A stretch of 64,000 nt of DNA, taken from Acholeplasmataceae bacterium. GTDB taxonomy: Bacteria; Bacillota_I; Bacilli_A; Acholeplasmatales; Acholeplasmataceae. Made by a program: the position numbers and the translations under genes. The notes beneath the pieces were generated by a model. It ran no database searches. It worked only from the letters and a program-made list of their open reading frames with translations, and was not told the DNA's origin. This document shows, piece by piece, positions 45,986-56,567 of the stretch; position 1 is the stretch's first letter, and each line of letters begins with the position of its first letter. The stretch spans positions 62,001 through 126,000 of the forward strand of contig JAUVXD010000003.1 of the NCBI GenBank assembly GCA_030603805.1, written 5' to 3'.

Positions 45986-47134
45986 ATGGAAAAAAGAAAG
46001 ATTGATAAACAACAAGATTTGATTATGAATTTACTTAGACCTTTGGTCTATTTATGGATGCGTATAGATGCAAAAAGAAAAGTCATTCGGGGAGAAGGTG
46101 TTTCTTTTAGGAGAAAAGAGCCTTTTATTATGCTAGCAAATCACACATTTATGTTTGATGTTATTCATGTGCCATTACGTTTTAAAAATGTACCTTTTAT
46201 CGTTGCTAACCAAACATTATTTAAAAAACCTTCCACCAAATTTTTAGTTACACAAGTTGCTCATGTAATTGCTAAGCAAAAAGGACAAAGCGATACTGCA
46301 ACTGTTAGAGATTTGATAGGTGCCGTTAAAAGAGGGTATCCTATATTAATATTTCCTGAAGGGGATACAACGTTTTACGGAGAAACAAATTACATTGAAG
46401 AATCAACGATGAAGTTAATCAAAAAACTCGAAATTGATGTCATCACATGTAATGTTAGAGGGGGTTACTTATCGAAACCAAGATGGGCTATATCAAAACG
46501 TAAAAAAAGATATGCAGAATTTTACTATGAACTGACAATTCCAAAAGAAGAGATTAAGAATTTATCAGTCGATGAAATCAATGAAAAGATTAAAAAAGCA
46601 CTTTATCACAATGCCTATGACTATCAAAGAGTTCATCGGATTGCACATCCTGGAAAAAGACTTGCTGAAGGACTTGAAAATGTGGTTTATGTCTGTCCGG
46701 AATGTGAAGCAATTCATTCAATTCAAACAGAAAAAAATAGAATTTGGTGCACATCTTGTCATACAGAAGGTTTGATGGATAAATTTGGATTTATTCAAGG
46801 ATTTAAGTATGATAATTTAATTGAATGGAATCAGTTTCAAAGACAGTATCAAACAGAATTGAAGAAATCAATTGTTTCTAGCAAAGCCATGCTATATTAT
46901 CTCAACGAAGAAAACCAAGAACTTACACCTGTAGGCGATGTCTTATTGACATATAAAGATTATCATCTAAATTTTGAAGGTGCTTTGAATGAATCCATTC
47001 CTATTGATCAAATCATCAATCCGACCATCACATTTAGAAGAGATTTAGGGTTTATTTATCAGGACCGAAGCTTTTTAATCATCTTAGAAAAATCAACAGC
47101 AGGATTCCTTCGAATTCTTCAAAATAAGTATTAA
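45986..47134 (+). CDS. PlsC-type acyltransferase with C-terminal zinc ribbon
   Basis: 382 aa. PlsC block I is complete (MLANHTFMFD, H-x4-D, near residue 50) and block III is ILIFPEGDTTF near 116. After residue 225 a zinc-ribbon-like pair CPEC and CTSC is separated by 14 residues, followed by about 130 residues of mixed sequence. The whole layout repeats in the protein at 55326-56567, so they are paralogues. Transfer of a fatty acid to a glycerol or glycolipid at the membrane is likely; the ribbon's role is unknown. Confidence 0.78.
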   Translation: MEKRKIDKQQDLIMNLLRPLVYLWMRIDAKRKVIRGEGVSFRRKEPFIMLANHTFMFDVIHVPLRFKNVPFIVANQTLFKKPSTKFLVTQVAHVIAKQKGQSDTATVRDLIGAVKRGYPILIFPEGDTTFYGETNYIEESTMKLIKKLEIDVITCNVRGGYLSKPRWAISKRKKRYAEFYYELTIPKEEIKNLSVDEINEKIKKALYHNAYDYQRVHRIAHPGKRLAEGLENVVYVCPECEAIHSIQTEKNRIWCTSCHTEGLMDKFGFIQGFKYDNLIEWNQFQRQYQTELKKSIVSSKAMLYYLNEENQELTPVGDVLLTYKDYHLNFEGALNESIPIDQIINPTITFRRDLGFIYQDRSFLIILEKSTAGFLRILQNKY

Positions 47135-49502: not shown

Positions 49503-49518
49503 TTAAGGGGTGTTTGTC

Positions 49519-51546
49519 ATGAATCAAGAAAAAAATATAAGCAATTCAATCGATAAGGTCCTACCTTTAGGACCTTTTATTGTCGATGAAAAGCATGCAT
49601 ATAACAGTTACTTAATTCAGGGGAAATCACTCAATATCTTGGTTGATGTCATGCCTATCCAAGTATTAGATTTGCAAAAAACTGCCATTCAAAAGACAAT
49701 TGAAATCAATCTATTAACACATATCATCATTCATGGGATGCATATGAGTTCCATTAATACCATGATTGAACTGATTGACGAAGGATTTAAAGGCATCATC
49801 ATCACTAATGCCTTTTTTGCTAGACAAATTAAAAATGCCCAACTACCTGTAGAGATTTTAACCATTGAATCTATGAATTATAAATGGGTTTTTGATAAAA
49901 AAGTCATCATGAATTTCATACCGATGGTTTTTCTACCTTATCCAGAGATGTTTATGACCTATCTTCAACCACTAGAAACTCTTTTTTCATCTAAACTTTA
50001 TTCCAATTATTATGAAGATTCGAAAAACATCACCCTAGATTATTTGAAACAAAGCATCTTTGATTATCATAAAGATAACATGCCAACCACTGAGTTTGTC
50101 AGGATCCCCTTAAGAGTTATTGATAAATTTGAAATCTCTCATATTTATCCACTCATGGGGCACATAATTCCCGAAAATGACATCGATCAAATCACGGACT
50201 ACTTACTTAAAATGGATTTTTATAATACCTATGTTGTTTACAAATTCAACGAAGCGCATGAAAAAGAAATCAATTTTATTGAAGTCATTAATCATATGAT
50301 TTTAAAATTAGAGCAGTATATTCCAAGAATCGAGATACTCAATACACTGATAGGAACACCTTTTTCACTGGATTCTAACACCTTACAACTCAAGAAATCC
50401 ACGTTATCCGGATACAAATTATGGCATGGATTTTTCGAACACATCTATATTAAGAAAGGCATTTCATGGTTATCTATTTTAGAACCGATGGTCAACCGGT
50501 ACGCAGAGCATCACTCCATTGAACTTCCCAATATTTTTCAGTCTCAAATCTTAGGTTTGACTGAGACACAAAAGAAACTTGAACTTGAAAAAGCCGATCT
50601 AGAGATCAAACTCAAAGAACTTAAAGATCAAGCAGATCAAGCAAGAGATGAAATACTCAAGTGTCCCATTACCCATCTTTATTACACTGAGGTACTCAAA
50701 AGAATGTTATCTCATGATATGACAGAATCTAAATCAGATCATGTAGCTTTGGGTTTAGCACTCGTTCAGCTCGATAATTTAAATGAAATTAACCGGAAAT
50801 ATGGTAAAGAAACTGGAGATGAAGCGATTCGAAATTTAGCGTATCAAATCGCACAGATTAAAAAAGATGAGAGTCTTATTTTTAAGCAAAATGGTCCAGG
50901 AATCTATATATATCTTCCAGAAACGAGTATCACAGAGCTGCAAGCTTGTTCTCTTGAACTTAGAAATAGCATCATGAAGTCCGATGTATTTTTAGAGGAC
51001 ACTTCAGTATCGATTGCGATTGTGACTCAAGATGAAATCATCAAGGATCAACCTGTTGAAGATCAAATCAAAGATCTATTTTCACTTCTAGAACGGCGGA
51101 TGATGCTTGCTAAAACTCAAGGTAAAGCATCTATTATAGATCAAACCTTTCAACTTCCTCAAATGGATGAAGGCTCAATTTTACTTGTCGATGAAGATGA
51201 AGTAAGCAGAAATATGCTCTATCGTATTTTTAATCGCATCCATTTTAGAGTGATGCTCGCAACCTCAGTTAAAGAAGCAATAGAGATTGTTAATAAGTCA
51301 CAAATCGATGTCATCATATCAGAAATTAATCTTTCAAAAATTGATGGGTTTACACTTAAGCAAATGCTTAATGAAACCAAAGCATATAAAGAAATTCCAT
51401 TCATCATGGTATCCCACAATAAGACTTTAGATAATATCAAACGGGGAAATACTTTGGATGTTGATCTTATATTAGAAAAACCTATTGTTCCTGATGAACT
51501 GATTGGGCATGTGAAACGTTTCAAGGATCGGAAGACGATGCTATGA
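49519..51546 (+). CDS. Pseudo-ODP beta-lactamase-fold / degenerate GGDEF / receiver-like protein
   Basis: 675 aa, three regions. (1) About 15-235: a flavodiiron (ODP) beta-lactamase fold traceable from AYNSYLIQGKSLNILVDV, LTHIIIHGMHMSS and PYPEMFMTYLQPLETLFSS. The usual H-x-E-x-D-H is HGMHMSS and later His/Asp ligands are absent, so no di-iron site. (2) A coiled coil near 345-380, then a GGDEF-like domain starting ILKCPITHLYYTEVLKR with GKETGDEAI, lacking a GG(D/E)EF active loop. (3) About 553-675: a receiver domain ILLVDEDEVSRNMLYRIF whose phospho-acceptor is Glu (VIISEINLSKIDG). All enzymatic sites look lost: a scaffold or ligand sensor (inference). ATG 49519 has AAGGGGTG upstream. ATGA overlap with the next gene. 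Confidence 0.75.
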   Translation: MNQEKNISNSIDKVLPLGPFIVDEKHAYNSYLIQGKSLNILVDVMPIQVLDLQKTAIQKTIEINLLTHIIIHGMHMSSINTMIELIDEGFKGIIITNAFFARQIKNAQLPVEILTIESMNYKWVFDKKVIMNFIPMVFLPYPEMFMTYLQPLETLFSSKLYSNYYEDSKNITLDYLKQSIFDYHKDNMPTTEFVRIPLRVIDKFEISHIYPLMGHIIPENDIDQITDYLLKMDFYNTYVVYKFNEAHEKEINFIEVINHMILKLEQYIPRIEILNTLIGTPFSLDSNTLQLKKSTLSGYKLWHGFFEHIYIKKGISWLSILEPMVNRYAEHHSIELPNIFQSQILGLTETQKKLELEKADLEIKLKELKDQADQARDEILKCPITHLYYTEVLKRMLSHDMTESKSDHVALGLALVQLDNLNEINRKYGKETGDEAIRNLAYQIAQIKKDESLIFKQNGPGIYIYLPETSITELQACSLELRNSIMKSDVFLEDTSVSIAIVTQDEIIKDQPVEDQIKDLFSLLERRMMLAKTQGKASIIDQTFQLPQMDEGSILLVDEDEVSRNMLYRIFNRIHFRVMLATSVKEAIEIVNKSQIDVIISEINLSKIDGFTLKQMLNETKAYKEIPFIMVSHNKTLDNIKRGNTLDVDLILEKPIVPDELIGHVKRFKDRKTML

Positions 51547-54374
51547 CAGAACGACATGCACTCATCATTTTAATAGGTTTTGTCTTGGTTGCACTTTTTT
51601 TGGTCATCTTAATCATTTATCAAAAATGGATTAACCAAAGACAAATTCAATTACAAGGTCTTGCAAGGGATTATTTATTTAAGAAATACTTCGATTCAGA
51701 AGATGTTTTTATGCCTTTTTCTGGCAAGTTCTTTTTTGATGCCTATATTGATATTGAAACACAAATTCAAATCGAACCTTCTGTTAGAGAACGTGTGATT
51801 ACAGATTTATTGATGACAAGATTTTGCAAAAATCAGTTCAAAAAGTTGTCGAGCATAAGTCCAAACAAACGGAAAATAGCAGCGTTTTACATTGGAGCAT
51901 TGGAATCAAAACTGGCAATTGATGCTTTGAAGTCTAGGATACTTATAGAAAAAAACGATAGTGTTCGGTTTTATTTAATCTATCAACTGAAAAAGCACAT
52001 GTCTAAAGTTGTTTTTGATTCAGTTATGGAATCGCTTGTTGGTTCAAGTGTTATCTATCAACGTTGGATTCGCACATTACTAAACAATGAATACATCAAT
52101 ATTAAAAACTATCTACACACTTATATGAATCGAAATGAAAAAGAGATAGTTTTATGCTTACTTGAACTTTCCTCAAAACATTCTGATTTACAACTAATGC
52201 AGTATGCTTTAGATATTTTTAATCAACTAAATCATAGTTTAGATATTAGACAAAATGCACTCAATGCAGTTTCAAAAATGCACCCTGATCAAGTTTTTAA
52301 GGAAGATTATTATCGACATGAACTTGAAGAGGTTAGAAGTATCGCTATCAAAGCTGGCGCTGAAGTCGTTAGGAAAGAGACATTAAACACCCTAGTTTCA
52401 CTCGTGAGCGGAGAATCATTAGATGATGACATCGTCGAATCACTTTCAAAAATCACCTATGAATCTAAAAATTTACTACTCTATCTTGTAGAATCCTATC
52501 AAAAAGTTACCAATCTTAATCAAAGAAGAGTTTATGCAAAAGTATTAGCACATCGCATCGATTATTTGGTTCTGAAACTGAAAAGTGATGGATTAACTTA
52601 TGTCAAACAAATTCTTGATGATATCTTAGCACTTCATATCGTCGAAGATTTCATTGATTTTGTGAATAAGAATAAAGATTTACTTGTAGAGAAAGATTTG
52701 CTTGGTCTAATTAAAAAACATATGGTTAAAGATGATTACTTATTAAATCAATTTTCGATTTATTTAGATCAAACGATTCTATCAAAATTAGGAATGATGA
52801 AAATGGCTCAACCCATCATTCCTAGAGAAAAAGCACCTGTAGAAAAGAATAAAATTGTTTTCATCATCTCTTGGATTACATTTGCATGCCTCATTTTTCC
52901 TTTGATATTCTTCCTTTCTAATTTCAATGATATTTTTTCTGGAAATATCCCTGTTTTTACATCTTTAGTAGTTCATGTCAATAGGTACTTAGTTATATAC
53001 TTTTTAAGTGTGAACTCAATATATCTCTTATTACTACTGCTCTCCATCAAAGGATCTAAGGATAGGCTTGATTTATGGCAAATCAAAAAACAAACCTTGC
53101 TTTTTGAGCATGATTTGTTGCCTTCCATCTCAATTATTGCACCTGCTTACAATGAAGAGCTTTCAATCATAGAAAGTATTACATCACTCCTCAATTTGAA
53201 ATATCCAAAATATGAAGTGATTGTCGTTAATGATGGTTCGAAAGATCATACCATCGATGTTTTAATTGAACACTTTAAGTTAGAAAGAAAACATCCATTT
53301 TTTAAGGAACGTATTAAAACAAGACCACTTCGTGGGGTTTATGTGAATAAATTAATTCCGAATCTCATCGTCATTGATAAAGTCAATGGTGGTAAAGCTG
53401 ATGCATTAAATTTAGGCATCAATGCAGCTAAAAATGATTATATTTGTGGGATTGATGCAGATTCACTTCTTGAAGAAGATGCACTTCTAAAATTGACCAG
53501 TATCACTTTAGACAGTACAGTTGAACATATTGCATTAGGTGGTAATATTGTTCCTGTCAATGGTTGTGTGGTTGATAAAGGTAAAATTGATCACCAAGGA
53601 CTTGGAAAAAAAGAAATCGTTAGATTTCAAACGCTTGAATACTTAAGAGCTTTTACAACAGGTCGTATTGGATGGGCAAAGCTTAGAAGTTTGATGATCA
53701 TCTCAGGCGCTTTTGGTCTTTTTAATCGAAAGTCTTTAATTGATACAGGGGGTTATTTAACCATTAGTGGGCAGCTTAAAAAAGACACAGTGGGAGAAGA
53801 TATGGAACTTGTGGTTAGACTCACTCACCAAGCCCTCTTAAAGAAGAAAAAATATCGTGTTGAATATGTTCATCATGCAAATTGCTATACTGAACTTCCT
53901 TCAGATTTAAAAACTTTACTTAAGCAGCGTAATAGATGGCAACGTGGATTACTAGATATCTTAAGTTATCATAGAAGTATGCTCTTTAATCCTAGATACA
54001 AGCAACCAGGACTCATTGCTTTCCCCTATTTTTTCATTTATGAAATGATTGGACCTTTCTTGGAAATGATTGGGTATCTCGCATTAATTGCAGGCTTACT
54101 CTTAGGTATATTAAATACAGGGCTTGTGTTATTACTCATAGCAGTGACCATAGGTTATGGTATGGTGATTTCGCTTTTCTCCCTTTGGATTGCAGAACGT
54201 AAAAACCAATTTTATAGCAACAAAGAAACGATGATTTTAATCTTTACAGCTATACTTGAGAACTTTGGCTATAGACAATTGATGAGTTTGCATCGTGTGG
54301 CATCCACGTTTTCAGCGATTCGAGAAAAAGGTGCATGGGGCACACAAAAAAGACAAGGCTTTGTCAAACAATAG
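51543..54374 (+). CDS. HEAT-repeat / processive family-2 glycosyltransferase fusion
   Basis: 943 aa. Helix 1 (about 6-28), then a roughly 400-residue helical HEAT-like region (for example SVRFYLIYQLKKHMSK and LEEVRSIAIKAGAEVVRKE), two helices (about 436-500), a GT2 catalytic domain and C-terminal helices. GT motifs: SIIAPAYNEE (about 529), VVNDGS (561), DAD (637), VGEDMEL (751) and QRNRW (794), the D, DxD, ED and QxxRW set of processive synthases such as PgaC, HasA and BcsA. It should polymerise and export a polysaccharide. No PilZ domain is visible, so control may pass through the HEAT region and the neighbours. Sugar unknown. Confidence 0.85.
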   Translation: MTERHALIILIGFVLVALFLVILIIYQKWINQRQIQLQGLARDYLFKKYFDSEDVFMPFSGKFFFDAYIDIETQIQIEPSVRERVITDLLMTRFCKNQFKKLSSISPNKRKIAAFYIGALESKLAIDALKSRILIEKNDSVRFYLIYQLKKHMSKVVFDSVMESLVGSSVIYQRWIRTLLNNEYINIKNYLHTYMNRNEKEIVLCLLELSSKHSDLQLMQYALDIFNQLNHSLDIRQNALNAVSKMHPDQVFKEDYYRHELEEVRSIAIKAGAEVVRKETLNTLVSLVSGESLDDDIVESLSKITYESKNLLLYLVESYQKVTNLNQRRVYAKVLAHRIDYLVLKLKSDGLTYVKQILDDILALHIVEDFIDFVNKNKDLLVEKDLLGLIKKHMVKDDYLLNQFSIYLDQTILSKLGMMKMAQPIIPREKAPVEKNKIVFIISWITFACLIFPLIFFLSNFNDIFSGNIPVFTSLVVHVNRYLVIYFLSVNSIYLLLLLLSIKGSKDRLDLWQIKKQTLLFEHDLLPSISIIAPAYNEELSIIESITSLLNLKYPKYEVIVVNDGSKDHTIDVLIEHFKLERKHPFFKERIKTRPLRGVYVNKLIPNLIVIDKVNGGKADALNLGINAAKNDYICGIDADSLLEEDALLKLTSITLDSTVEHIALGGNIVPVNGCVVDKGKIDHQGLGKKEIVRFQTLEYLRAFTTGRIGWAKLRSLMIISGAFGLFNRKSLIDTGGYLTISGQLKKDTVGEDMELVVRLTHQALLKKKKYRVEYVHHANCYTELPSDLKTLLKQRNRWQRGLLDILSYHRSMLFNPRYKQPGLIAFPYFFIYEMIGPFLEMIGYLALIAGLLLGILNTGLVLLLIAVTIGYGMVISLFSLWIAERKNQFYSNKETMILIFTAILENFGYRQLMSLHRVASTFSAIREKGAWGTQKRQGFVKQ

Positions 54375-54382
54375 GAGCATAT

Positions 54383-55279
54383 ATGAAATCACTACCTTTA
54401 ATGAAACAACTCTTTGAATCATTTCATGAGGCGATCTATATCGTTGATTCACAAAGAAGAATTCTTTATTTTAATCCGGTTGCAACAGAGATATCAGGGT
54501 TTTCTCAGGGAGAAACCGAAGGATTTTTCTGTTTTGATAATATGTTAAATCATATTGATCAAGCGGGTAAAAATTTATGTATTGATGGATGCCCTTTAGT
54601 CGATGCTATTTATCATAATCGAGTTGAGGATCATATGGTATTTCTTCATCATAAAGCAGGACACCGTGTTAAGGTTCATGTTAGAGCTATTCCAATTGTT
54701 GAAGAGGATCAAGTTGTCGGCGCAATTGAAGTATTTACCAATGAATCAGCAAAGAATCTGATTGAAGAAGAATTAAACATTAAAGATCGACTTTTGATGA
54801 TAGATCCTTTAACATCACTGTTTAATCGCCGGTTTCTAGATGAAAGATTAACTCATATCATTGATGAATCAAATGATAAGACGTATGGTGTATTATTTTT
54901 TGATATTGATAATTTTAAATCAATTAATGATGTTTTTGGTCATCTTTATGGAGATGAAATCTTAAAAGTCGTTGCAAAAACAATTCAGTTAAATTTAAAA
55001 GATACAGATTTTGTGATTAGATTTGGTGGAGAAGAAATGATTGCTATATTGCCAGATGTGACGCAAATCACATTATTTCAAATTGCTGAGGTTTTAAGAC
55101 AACTCATTCATCAAACCAAACCAAGACTGCCAGAGCATGATTATCAAATGAGTGTCTCTATTGGCGCAACAATACTTAAAAACGATGAATCTTTAACCGA
55201 TGCGATTCATCGCGCGGATCAAGCGATGTATCAGGCTAAAAAAACAGGAAAAGATCGAACCATTTATTTAGAGTCATAA
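54383..55279 (+). CDS. PAS-GGDEF diguanylate cyclase
   Basis: 298 aa, soluble. PAS domain (about 8-120) with LFESFHEAIYIVDSQRRILY; it contains three Cys (CFDN, CIDGC) that could bind metal or sense redox (inference). The linker leads to a GGDEF domain with DPLTSLFNRRFLDERL (about 140), FFDIDNFKSINDVFGH and active loop RFGGEEM, so catalysis is likely. The inhibitory RxxD site is absent. ATG 54383 has TAGGAGCATAT upstream and lies 8 bases after the HEAT-GT2 gene. It likely makes c-di-GMP for this locus. Confidence 0.88.
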   Translation: MKSLPLMKQLFESFHEAIYIVDSQRRILYFNPVATEISGFSQGETEGFFCFDNMLNHIDQAGKNLCIDGCPLVDAIYHNRVEDHMVFLHHKAGHRVKVHVRAIPIVEEDQVVGAIEVFTNESAKNLIEEELNIKDRLLMIDPLTSLFNRRFLDERLTHIIDESNDKTYGVLFFDIDNFKSINDVFGHLYGDEILKVVAKTIQLNLKDTDFVIRFGGEEMIAILPDVTQITLFQIAEVLRQLIHQTKPRLPEHDYQMSVSIGATILKNDESLTDAIHRADQAMYQAKKTGKDRTIYLES

Positions 55280-55325: not shown

Positions 55326-56567
55326 ATGGACCAAATTAAGCGATTTGATTTAGATAAAAAACCTTTGAAGGAAAAGTTTTTTTTAACACCATTAGCTTAT
55401 TTGTTAAGCTTTCCCTCGGTTTGGAAACGAAAACTTAAAATTAATAAAGTGAGTATGAAAGGCTTAAAGCCCCCTTATATATTACTTTGTACACATCACG
55501 CTTTCATCGATTTTAAAGTCACAACCGCTGCCATTTTTCCAAATCGCGCGAATTATATTGTTGCAATCGATGGTTTTATTGGTCGAGAGTGGTTACTCAG
55601 AAATGTAGGTGGCATTTGTAAACGAAAATTTACCAATGACATAAAACTATTTAAACAAATCAAATATGCTTTAGAAGAACTTAAATATATCGTTGCCATA
55701 TATCCTGAAGCAAGATATTCACTGTGTGGAACAACAGCCATTTTGCCTGAATCACTTGGAAAAATGGTGAAGGTATTAAAGCATCCAGTTGTTGTCTTAA
55801 ATATGCATGGTGACTACTTAACGCAACCTGTATGGAATCTATCCATGAGAAGAGTACCACTTGCTGCAGATATGACACAAATCATCACCAAAGATGAAAT
55901 AAACTTTCTTTCTGTTGATGAAATCAATAGAAGAATCAATCAAGCATTCATCTATGATGAATATCAGTGGCAAAAAGACAATCAAATCAAGATTGATTTT
56001 AAACATCGTGCAAAAGGACTGCATCAAGTTTTATATCAATGTCCAAGTTGCAAGACTGAACATCAAATGAATTCTGATTTAGATAAAATTTGGTGTGATT
56101 CTTGCGGTAAAACCTATCATATGGACGTTTATGGAGAACTACACGCTGAACAAGGGGTTACTGAATTTAGTCATATTCCTGATTGGTATGAGTTTGAAAG
56201 AGCTTGGGTCAAAGATGAGATTTTGTCTGGAAAGTACTATTTTGAAGATGAAGTTTATATTGAAACTCTGCCCAATAGTCAAGGCTATATCCCGCTTGGA
56301 AATGGGAAACTCATTCATAACAATCAAGGATTTGTTCTTACAGGTGATGAACTTGGAAAACCTTTGAACTTAGTTAAGGAACCCTTATCTTTATATTCAC
56401 TTCATATCGAATATAATTATTTAGGGAAAAAAGGGGATTGTATTGATTTATCAACCTTAAATGATACCTATTATATCTACCCTTTAAACAAGAAAAACGT
56501 GGTTACAAAGCTTCATTTTGCAGTAGAAGAACTCTATAAAATCGAAAAAGGAAAAGTTAAGAATTAA
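55326..56567 (+). CDS. PlsC-type acyltransferase with zinc ribbon (paralogue of 45986-47134)
   Basis: 413 aa. Block I LCTHHAFIDFK (H-x4-D near residue 60), block III VAIYPEARYSLCG near 122, zinc-ribbon pair CPSC and CDSC near 240-262, then about 150 residues. The middle FLSVDEINRRINQAFIYDEYQ matches LSVDEINEKIKKALYHNAYDY in its paralogue, so the two arose by duplication. Starts 46 bases after the diguanylate cyclase gene and could be part of that operon. Acyl acceptor unknown. Confidence 0.75.
   Translation: MDQIKRFDLDKKPLKEKFFLTPLAYLLSFPSVWKRKLKINKVSMKGLKPPYILLCTHHAFIDFKVTTAAIFPNRANYIVAIDGFIGREWLLRNVGGICKRKFTNDIKLFKQIKYALEELKYIVAIYPEARYSLCGTTAILPESLGKMVKVLKHPVVVLNMHGDYLTQPVWNLSMRRVPLAADMTQIITKDEINFLSVDEINRRINQAFIYDEYQWQKDNQIKIDFKHRAKGLHQVLYQCPSCKTEHQMNSDLDKIWCDSCGKTYHMDVYGELHAEQGVTEFSHIPDWYEFERAWVKDEILSGKYYFEDEVYIETLPNSQGYIPLGNGKLIHNNQGFVLTGDELGKPLNLVKEPLSLYSLHIEYNYLGKKGDCIDLSTLNDTYYIYPLNKKNVVTKLHFAVEELYKIEKGKVKN

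Follow-up and report, generated by a model that had tools for sequence, protein, structure and literature searches.

A degenerate GGDEF regulator with an aspartate-less receiver paired with a HEAT-repeat glycosyltransferase in Acholeplasmatales and Spirochaetota

The known regulation of processive family 2 glycosyltransferases (GT2) centres on cyclic di-GMP (c-di-GMP) acting with PilZ domains or I-site receptors. We describe here two adjacent genes, A and B, of an Acholeplasmataceae bacterium, which code for a three-domain regulator and for a predicted GT2 synthase preceded by a HEAT-repeat region. They lie in a stretch of 64,000 nucleotides, called the window below (contig JAUVXD010000003.1, positions 62,001 to 126,000, of assembly GCA_030603805.1), from a genome of 2.06 Mb with 99.9% completeness whose nearest named relatives are Acholeplasmataceae metagenome-assembled genomes (MAGs). 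In the YdaK-YdaMN operon of Bacillus subtilis, which codes for a c-di-GMP-dependent exopolysaccharide machinery, the degenerate GGDEF protein YdaK is the receptor that controls a GT2 synthase, a function that requires its I-site arginine (PMC7064775). Protein A is likewise a degenerate GGDEF protein encoded in an operon with a GT2 synthase, but YdaK is membrane-bound with an intact I-site whereas A has neither membrane helix nor I-site and carries in addition an ODP domain and a receiver. ODP, an oxygen-binding diiron protein, is known from the chemotaxis systems of Thermotoga maritima and Treponema denticola (6qrq, 6qnm; PMC7666581), where it is coupled to chemoreceptors and, in T. denticola, senses oxygen; the domain of A has the same fold (Foldseek TMt ~0.7) and Pfam family, but its coupling is to a polysaccharide synthase. 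Receivers whose phosphorylatable aspartate is substituted, the aspartate-less receivers (ALRs) such as RitR and ChxR, have DNA binding as output; the commonest substitution is Glu, which can sometimes, not always, mimic phosphorylation (PMC4395418). The receiver of A is alike in fold and carries this very change, whereas its output would be a membrane enzyme reached through a HEAT arm. We favour, with a probability of about 0.55, the reading that A docks through its receiver on the HEAT arm of B and sets the activity of the synthase, ancestrally under oxygen or redox control. It draws on sequence comparison and structure models.

Along B, a transmembrane helix is followed by an alpha-solenoid of ~360 residues, two more membrane helices, the GT2 domain and carboxyl-terminal membrane helices. 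The GT2 motifs D638xD640, GED751-753 and QxxRW795-799 are all preserved and do not vary among aligned homologues; with the flanking membrane helices and the modelled fold, they assign B to the processive GT2 polysaccharide synthases by prediction. The AlphaFold2 model (pLDDT 87.4, pTM 0.84) has ~20 consecutive paired helices in the HEAT region, at pLDDT values mostly of 86-96; the HEAT match of the window protein by sequence reaches only E=0.04, and HEAT_2 is matched by 13 of 17 homologues in Pfam. A HEAT region ahead of a processive GT2 was already proposed in an earlier sequence-only reading of this DNA, and both this region and the ODP fold of A are indeed present in the models. Foldseek ranks hyaluronan synthases best for the synthase part, then a mannosyltransferase, cellulose synthase and chitin synthases. 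B is thus like hyaluronan synthase and the processive GT2s that make cellulose, chitin or poly-N-acetylglucosamine (PNAG) in its best Protein Data Bank fold, in its DxD, GED and QxxRW motifs and in having helices on both sides of the glycosyltransferase domain, and differs from them by the solenoid in front. YdaM is not known to have a HEAT region either. Identity of B with the PNAG synthase PgaC/IcaA was rejected, its score being 111 bits against the 422-bit cut-off of NCBIfam TIGR03937.

The ODP, GGDEF and Response_reg matches of A all pass the Pfam cut-off, in line with the degenerate GGDEF and receiver recognized earlier. Its AlphaFold2 model has a pLDDT of 83.8 and a pTM of only 0.42, so that the arrangement of the domains is unsure; Foldseek matches it to crystal structures of diguanylate cyclases and of the ODP oxygen sensor (6qrq, 6qwo, 6r9n; TMt 0.70-0.75). 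The six positions equivalent to the ODP/flavodiiron metal ligands are G, H, S, P, K and M in the window protein, none being kept. A fold of this kind with its ligands lost had been foreseen, under the flavodiiron HxExDH signature; the nearest family is ODP, with HxDxD. The GGDEF signature is replaced by (F)KQxGPG, its GPG being invariant among close relatives, and reads NGPGI in the window protein, where a Gln stands in place of the first metal-binding Asp. Alignment of 32 A proteins found none with an intact GG(D/E)EF signature and the first metal-binding Asp. In the receiver, Glu602 replaces the phosphorylatable Asp, a change not remarked upon previously and present in all 32 proteins, from Acholeplasmatales and Spirochaetota. 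The remaining pocket residues are mostly retained; by fold and substituted Asp the domain is an ALR and not a canonical phospho-receiver. It is also the most conserved domain of A (71% against 47% and 40% for the others, window A versus the homologue at locus L040), as expected for a part that binds a partner.

In the window lineage, all three domains of A thus apparently lack their catalytic residues. This would suit a purely structural A, acting as a scaffold or as a partner obligatory for the assembly of B and sensing nothing, its domains being relics kept for dimerisation and docking, as would the annotated A proteins of L046 and L053, which are shortened to the GGDEF and receiver domains. 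We hold this explanation to be rather improbable since the iron site is complete in four relatives (see below) and the window lineage still has the ODP fold despite the loss of its ligands.

The coupling of A to B is conserved. The start of B overlaps the stop of A as ATGA, and the pair is found again in ~20 relatives, beyond what chance would give. It occurs in two major lineages, Acholeplasmatales and Spirochaetota, with genes that overlap or nearly so, in several unrelated gene contexts and always in the order A then B wherever the contig permits. Within the genus of the window the pair lies mostly downstream of tdh-kbl; its contexts are quite different in the rest of the order and in further lineages. 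Some copies are broken or split by stops or frameshifts (A in L024 and L033, B in L031), which could be assembly errors or decaying genes. A protein of 1050-1130 residues adjoins the pair at four loci (L048:12160-15324, L050:6733-10128, L051:4349-7588, L052:12094-15393); it has no Pfam match in L048 or L051, and in L052 its carboxyl-terminal half is homologous to a ~740-residue protein found beside separate HEAT and GT2 genes in Paenibacillus and relatives.

The alignment of B was searched against 84,980 named genomes, giving 80 loci. The first ~17 are fused A-B pairs or their remnants, in Acholeplasmatales-like MAGs and in Spirochaetota (Sphaerochaeta, Rectinema), and the remaining loci match B in its GT2 part only. 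These comprise 62 split loci from about 13 phyla, among them Bacillota, Bacteroidota, Acidobacteriota, Myxococcota, Gemmatimonadota, Balneolota, Deinococcota, Verrucomicrobiota, Pseudomonadota, Nitrospirota and Actinomycetota; being the best GT2 matches to B, they describe that GT2 subfamily and not GT2s at large. A separate HEAT protein is encoded immediately upstream of the GT2 gene (position -1) in 57 of 61 split loci and, according to a HEAT profile, nowhere else within eight genes. This profile was trained on the -1 genes themselves; the independent test is Pfam, in which 46 of the 47 genes tested match HEAT_2. Receiver proteins are encoded at positions -2 (36 loci), -3 (20 loci) and +1 (9 loci), and HEAT protein and receiver (within three genes of the GT2) are both present in 46 of the 62. 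The A-B pair therefore has the same three parts as the split clusters, usually in the same order, and is the fused form of a wider receiver-HEAT-GT2 module, much more widespread than the earlier reading had envisaged. The split clusters differ by making HEAT and GT2 as separate proteins, by a receiver that usually keeps its Asp and by the absence of any ODP domain seen. A quick tree of the GT2s sets the fused proteins apart on one side of a branch with an SH-aLRT of 100, consistent with a single HEAT-GT2 fusion event.

That A and B are mere neighbours, the HEAT region acting within the synthase itself, appears very improbable to us: HEAT regions can be intramolecular, but the coupling persists across phyla and gene contexts, and clusters of separate receiver, HEAT and GT2 genes occur again and again. 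The same recurrence lends support to the earlier idea that the regulator would act through the HEAT region. A literature search confined to open-licence papers, in which absence is not proven, found no description of an operon or module combining HEAT, GT2 and receiver, let alone a well-described one of the same architecture. The zetaproteobacterial stalk cluster was rejected as a precedent, its Sfz2 being a fusion of EpsE-like and GT2 parts for which HEAT is not mentioned.

Neighbours of the split loci hint at their products. UDP-glucose dehydrogenase and GlmS-like genes are part of the Pontibacillus locus and have homologues in that of Brevibacillus; genes of these two kinds lie 3' of the cluster at L118:12499-15766 and L083:12269-15508. 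They would supply uronic acid and hexosamine precursors, hinting at a candidate uronic acid/hexosamine polymer. Bacteroidota loci code for a YaiO barrel and a sulfatase-family protein; a YaiO outer-membrane barrel with TPR repeats is encoded beside the HEAT and GT2 genes at L077:11422-15011 and L057:11415-12767, together in L077 with a sulfatase-family protein. None of these precursor, YaiO or sulfatase-family genes adjoins A-B in the window.

Most receivers of the split loci keep Asp at the phosphorylation site, and in Bacteroidota the short receiver is often preceded by a larger receiver-containing protein that has the size of a histidine kinase, size being the only criterion used. Glu is found in the regulator encoded downstream of the GT2 in Paenibacillus/Pontibacillus and in the Myxococcota protein of L060. 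Both exceptions have a GGDEF-like degenerate stretch ahead of the receiver, and the former aligns with the GGDEF-receiver half of A (probability 99.5). The association of a degenerate GGDEF with a Glu receiver thus recurs beside HEAT and GT2.

The iron site of the ODP domain is not lost everywhere. All six ligand positions are kept in four A proteins, those of L048 and L049 (MAGs labelled Bacillota), L051 (Sphaerochaeta) and L056 (Spirochaetia), and the one from L048 aligns with the solved ODP of T. maritima at E=2e-30. These spirochaete-type proteins share every ligand with the ODPs of T. maritima and T. denticola, while window A shares none. Since ODP senses oxygen in T. denticola (PMC7666581), it can be inferred that polymer synthesis was ancestrally under an oxygen or redox input, which Acholeplasmatales and the Rectinema group would have lost.

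The earlier reading had suggested that A senses c-di-GMP or another ligand. In one such explanation A would be a c-di-GMP receptor that switches B on through its degenerate GGDEF, in the manner of YdaK (PMC7064775), and gene C, which follows B in the window and codes for a PAS-GGDEF protein with an intact GGEEM, as already read, would be its dedicated cyclase. The genome of the window has 22 GGDEF, 7 EAL and 1 HD-GYP matches, and PilZ was detected neither on B nor in that whole genome nor in 60 relatives (61 genomes of the order in all), which extends its absence as first noted and would leave room for another effector. Across the order the number of GGDEF genes in a genome reaches 28, and PilZ goes undetected. 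Genomes bearing A are also richer in GGDEF genes (median 15.5, A's own excluded, against 7), but this figure is uncorrected for kinship and most A carriers share one genus. Finally, C comes directly after B in one clade, but most A-B loci have no C. What decides against a receptor of this type is that YdaK needs its I-site arginine whereas RxxD is missing in 31 of the 32 A proteins, including that of the window (K...S at the two positions), only L053 having it, and that the cyclase active site is gone as well. The I-site role was rejected for those 31 proteins, direct c-di-GMP reception by A is not supported, and we regard the explanation as unlikely.

The reading we prefer, docking of the receiver of A on B, can be laid out as follows. 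A and B would make one regulated polysaccharide-synthase unit in which B synthesizes a sugar polymer and threads it through its own membrane channel; motifs and fold are seen, activity and polymeric product predicted. The even number of membrane helices between HEAT and GT2 would place the solenoid on the cytosolic side, beside the catalytic domain, where it could offer a docking arm to a receiver domain. In most bacteria the parts are encoded by separate adjacent receiver, HEAT and GT2 genes, and the Asp is kept, so that a kinase could presumably switch polymer synthesis. Fusion of HEAT with GT2 would have happened once, in the A-B lineage; there the receiver has a fixed Glu, kinase control would be gone and the docking shape is probably permanently on-like. 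Control would then have moved to the domains ahead of the receiver, the ODP domain acting via a coiled coil and an inactive GGDEF that serves as dimerisation module. In some Spirochaetota, where ODP has all its iron ligands, the input is probably oxygen or redox state. In the window lineage, its iron site lost, A may sense something else or be an obligate activator or scaffold, and c-di-GMP may feed in indirectly.

Several points weigh against this reading. Paenibacillaceae split systems also have Glu receivers, hence the Asp/Glu contrast is not absolute, and the change of Asp to Glu alone often fails to activate a receiver (PMC4395418). The role of oxygen is deduced only from ligand conservation, and this in relatives and not in window A. 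HEAT repeats can bind many partners, including lipid or the GT2 itself, and the receiver of the split systems might have targets other than these. Near some split loci no receiver is seen.

The features of the locus are collected in Table 1. The ATG of A stands a few bases 3' of an AAGGGG motif. A perfect 9-bp hairpin, AAGGTCCTA...TAGGACCTT, is found at 49555-49576, within the first codons of A, and is followed by a T-rich stretch. Neither Rfam matches nor tRNAs turned up when the window was scanned for RNA elements, and a promoter/terminator scan of the region gave counts no higher than chance.

Table 1. Coordinates of the A-B locus and its 3' neighbours in the window.
Feature	Coordinates	Strand	Evidence
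Shine-Dalgarno-like AAGGGG upstream of gene A	49506..49511	+	sequence inspection
Gene A, regulator, 675 residues	49519..51546	+	ORF (open reading frame), Pfam, alignments, AlphaFold2, Foldseek
ODP (MBL-fold) domain of A, residues 28-211	49600..50151	+	Pfam PF19583 1.7e-10; Foldseek
Long helix of A, residues 343-380, probable coiled-coil linker to GGDEF fold	50545..50658	+	AlphaFold2
Degenerate GGDEF domain of A, residues 383-536	50665..51126	+	Pfam 1.2e-12; alignments
Receiver domain of A, residues 554-665 (Glu602 codon 51322-51324)	51178..51513	+	Response_reg 2.5e-18
Gene B, predicted HEAT-repeat/processive GT2 membrane synthase, 943 residues	51543..54374	+	ORF, Pfam, AlphaFold2, Foldseek
N-terminal transmembrane helix of B, residues 7-25	51561..51617	+	hydropathy scan; model helix 3-50
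HEAT-like alpha-solenoid of B, residues ~61-415	51723..52787	+	AlphaFold2; HEAT_2 in homologues
GT2 catalytic domain of B, residues 527-802	53121..53948	+	Pfam PF00535 1.2e-22, PF13641 2.1e-18; motifs; fold match
Gene C, PAS-GGDEF diguanylate cyclase (GGEEM)	54383..55279	+	Pfam PAS E=6.6e-7; homologue alignment
Gene D, acyltransferase-like, zinc ribbon	55326..56567	+	profile match E=0.001; neighbourhood

Genes C and D are facultative neighbours. The start of C is more likely the ATG at 54383, 8 nt past the stop of B and preceded by the Shine-Dalgarno sequence AGGAG, than 54335 because homologues align from the former; the I-site arginine is absent from C, whose sequence has KxxD in its place. 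Gene D has a CxxC...CxxC ribbon, and its acyltransferase match is under the cut-off. C adjoins B on its 3' side in the window and in four loci of the same genus (L022-L025), D directly follows B with C absent in L029, L030 and L032 of that genus, and neither is adjacent to A-B loci in other contexts. Since relatives keep A-B without C or D, the two are excluded from the core. The trio A-B-C, proposed at first as one system of three coupled genes, was therefore rejected as a unit and its A-B part retained: the core is the A-B pair, and D is part of the local tdh-kbl neighbourhood. Two related zinc-ribbon acyltransferase-like genes, at 45986-47134 and at the position of D, flank tdh-kbl and the A-B genes.

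The recurrence of the module in about 13 phyla suggests a widespread and little-studied way of switching polysaccharide production. A broader proposal, which we put forward tentatively and consider plausible rather than probable, is that receiver-HEAT-GT2 would be an undescribed class of polysaccharide synthase found in over a dozen phyla, the membrane enzyme being switched by a response-regulator receiver that docks directly on the HEAT arm, with neither transcription nor PilZ as intermediary; along the A-B branch, the change of Asp to Glu would have frozen the phospho-switch, and the ODP oxygen sensor that replaced it would later have been blinded in Acholeplasmatales. If true, this would be a second widespread route from two-component signalling to a surface polymer, with the receiver acting directly on the synthase via the HEAT arm, and it would account for the so far unexplained receivers and HEAT proteins whose genes adjoin those of GT2s in many phyla. 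In Spirochaetota, control of polymer synthesis by oxygen would become directly testable. The finding is relevant, too, to how c-di-GMP is used in an order that has many enzymes for it and no PilZ.

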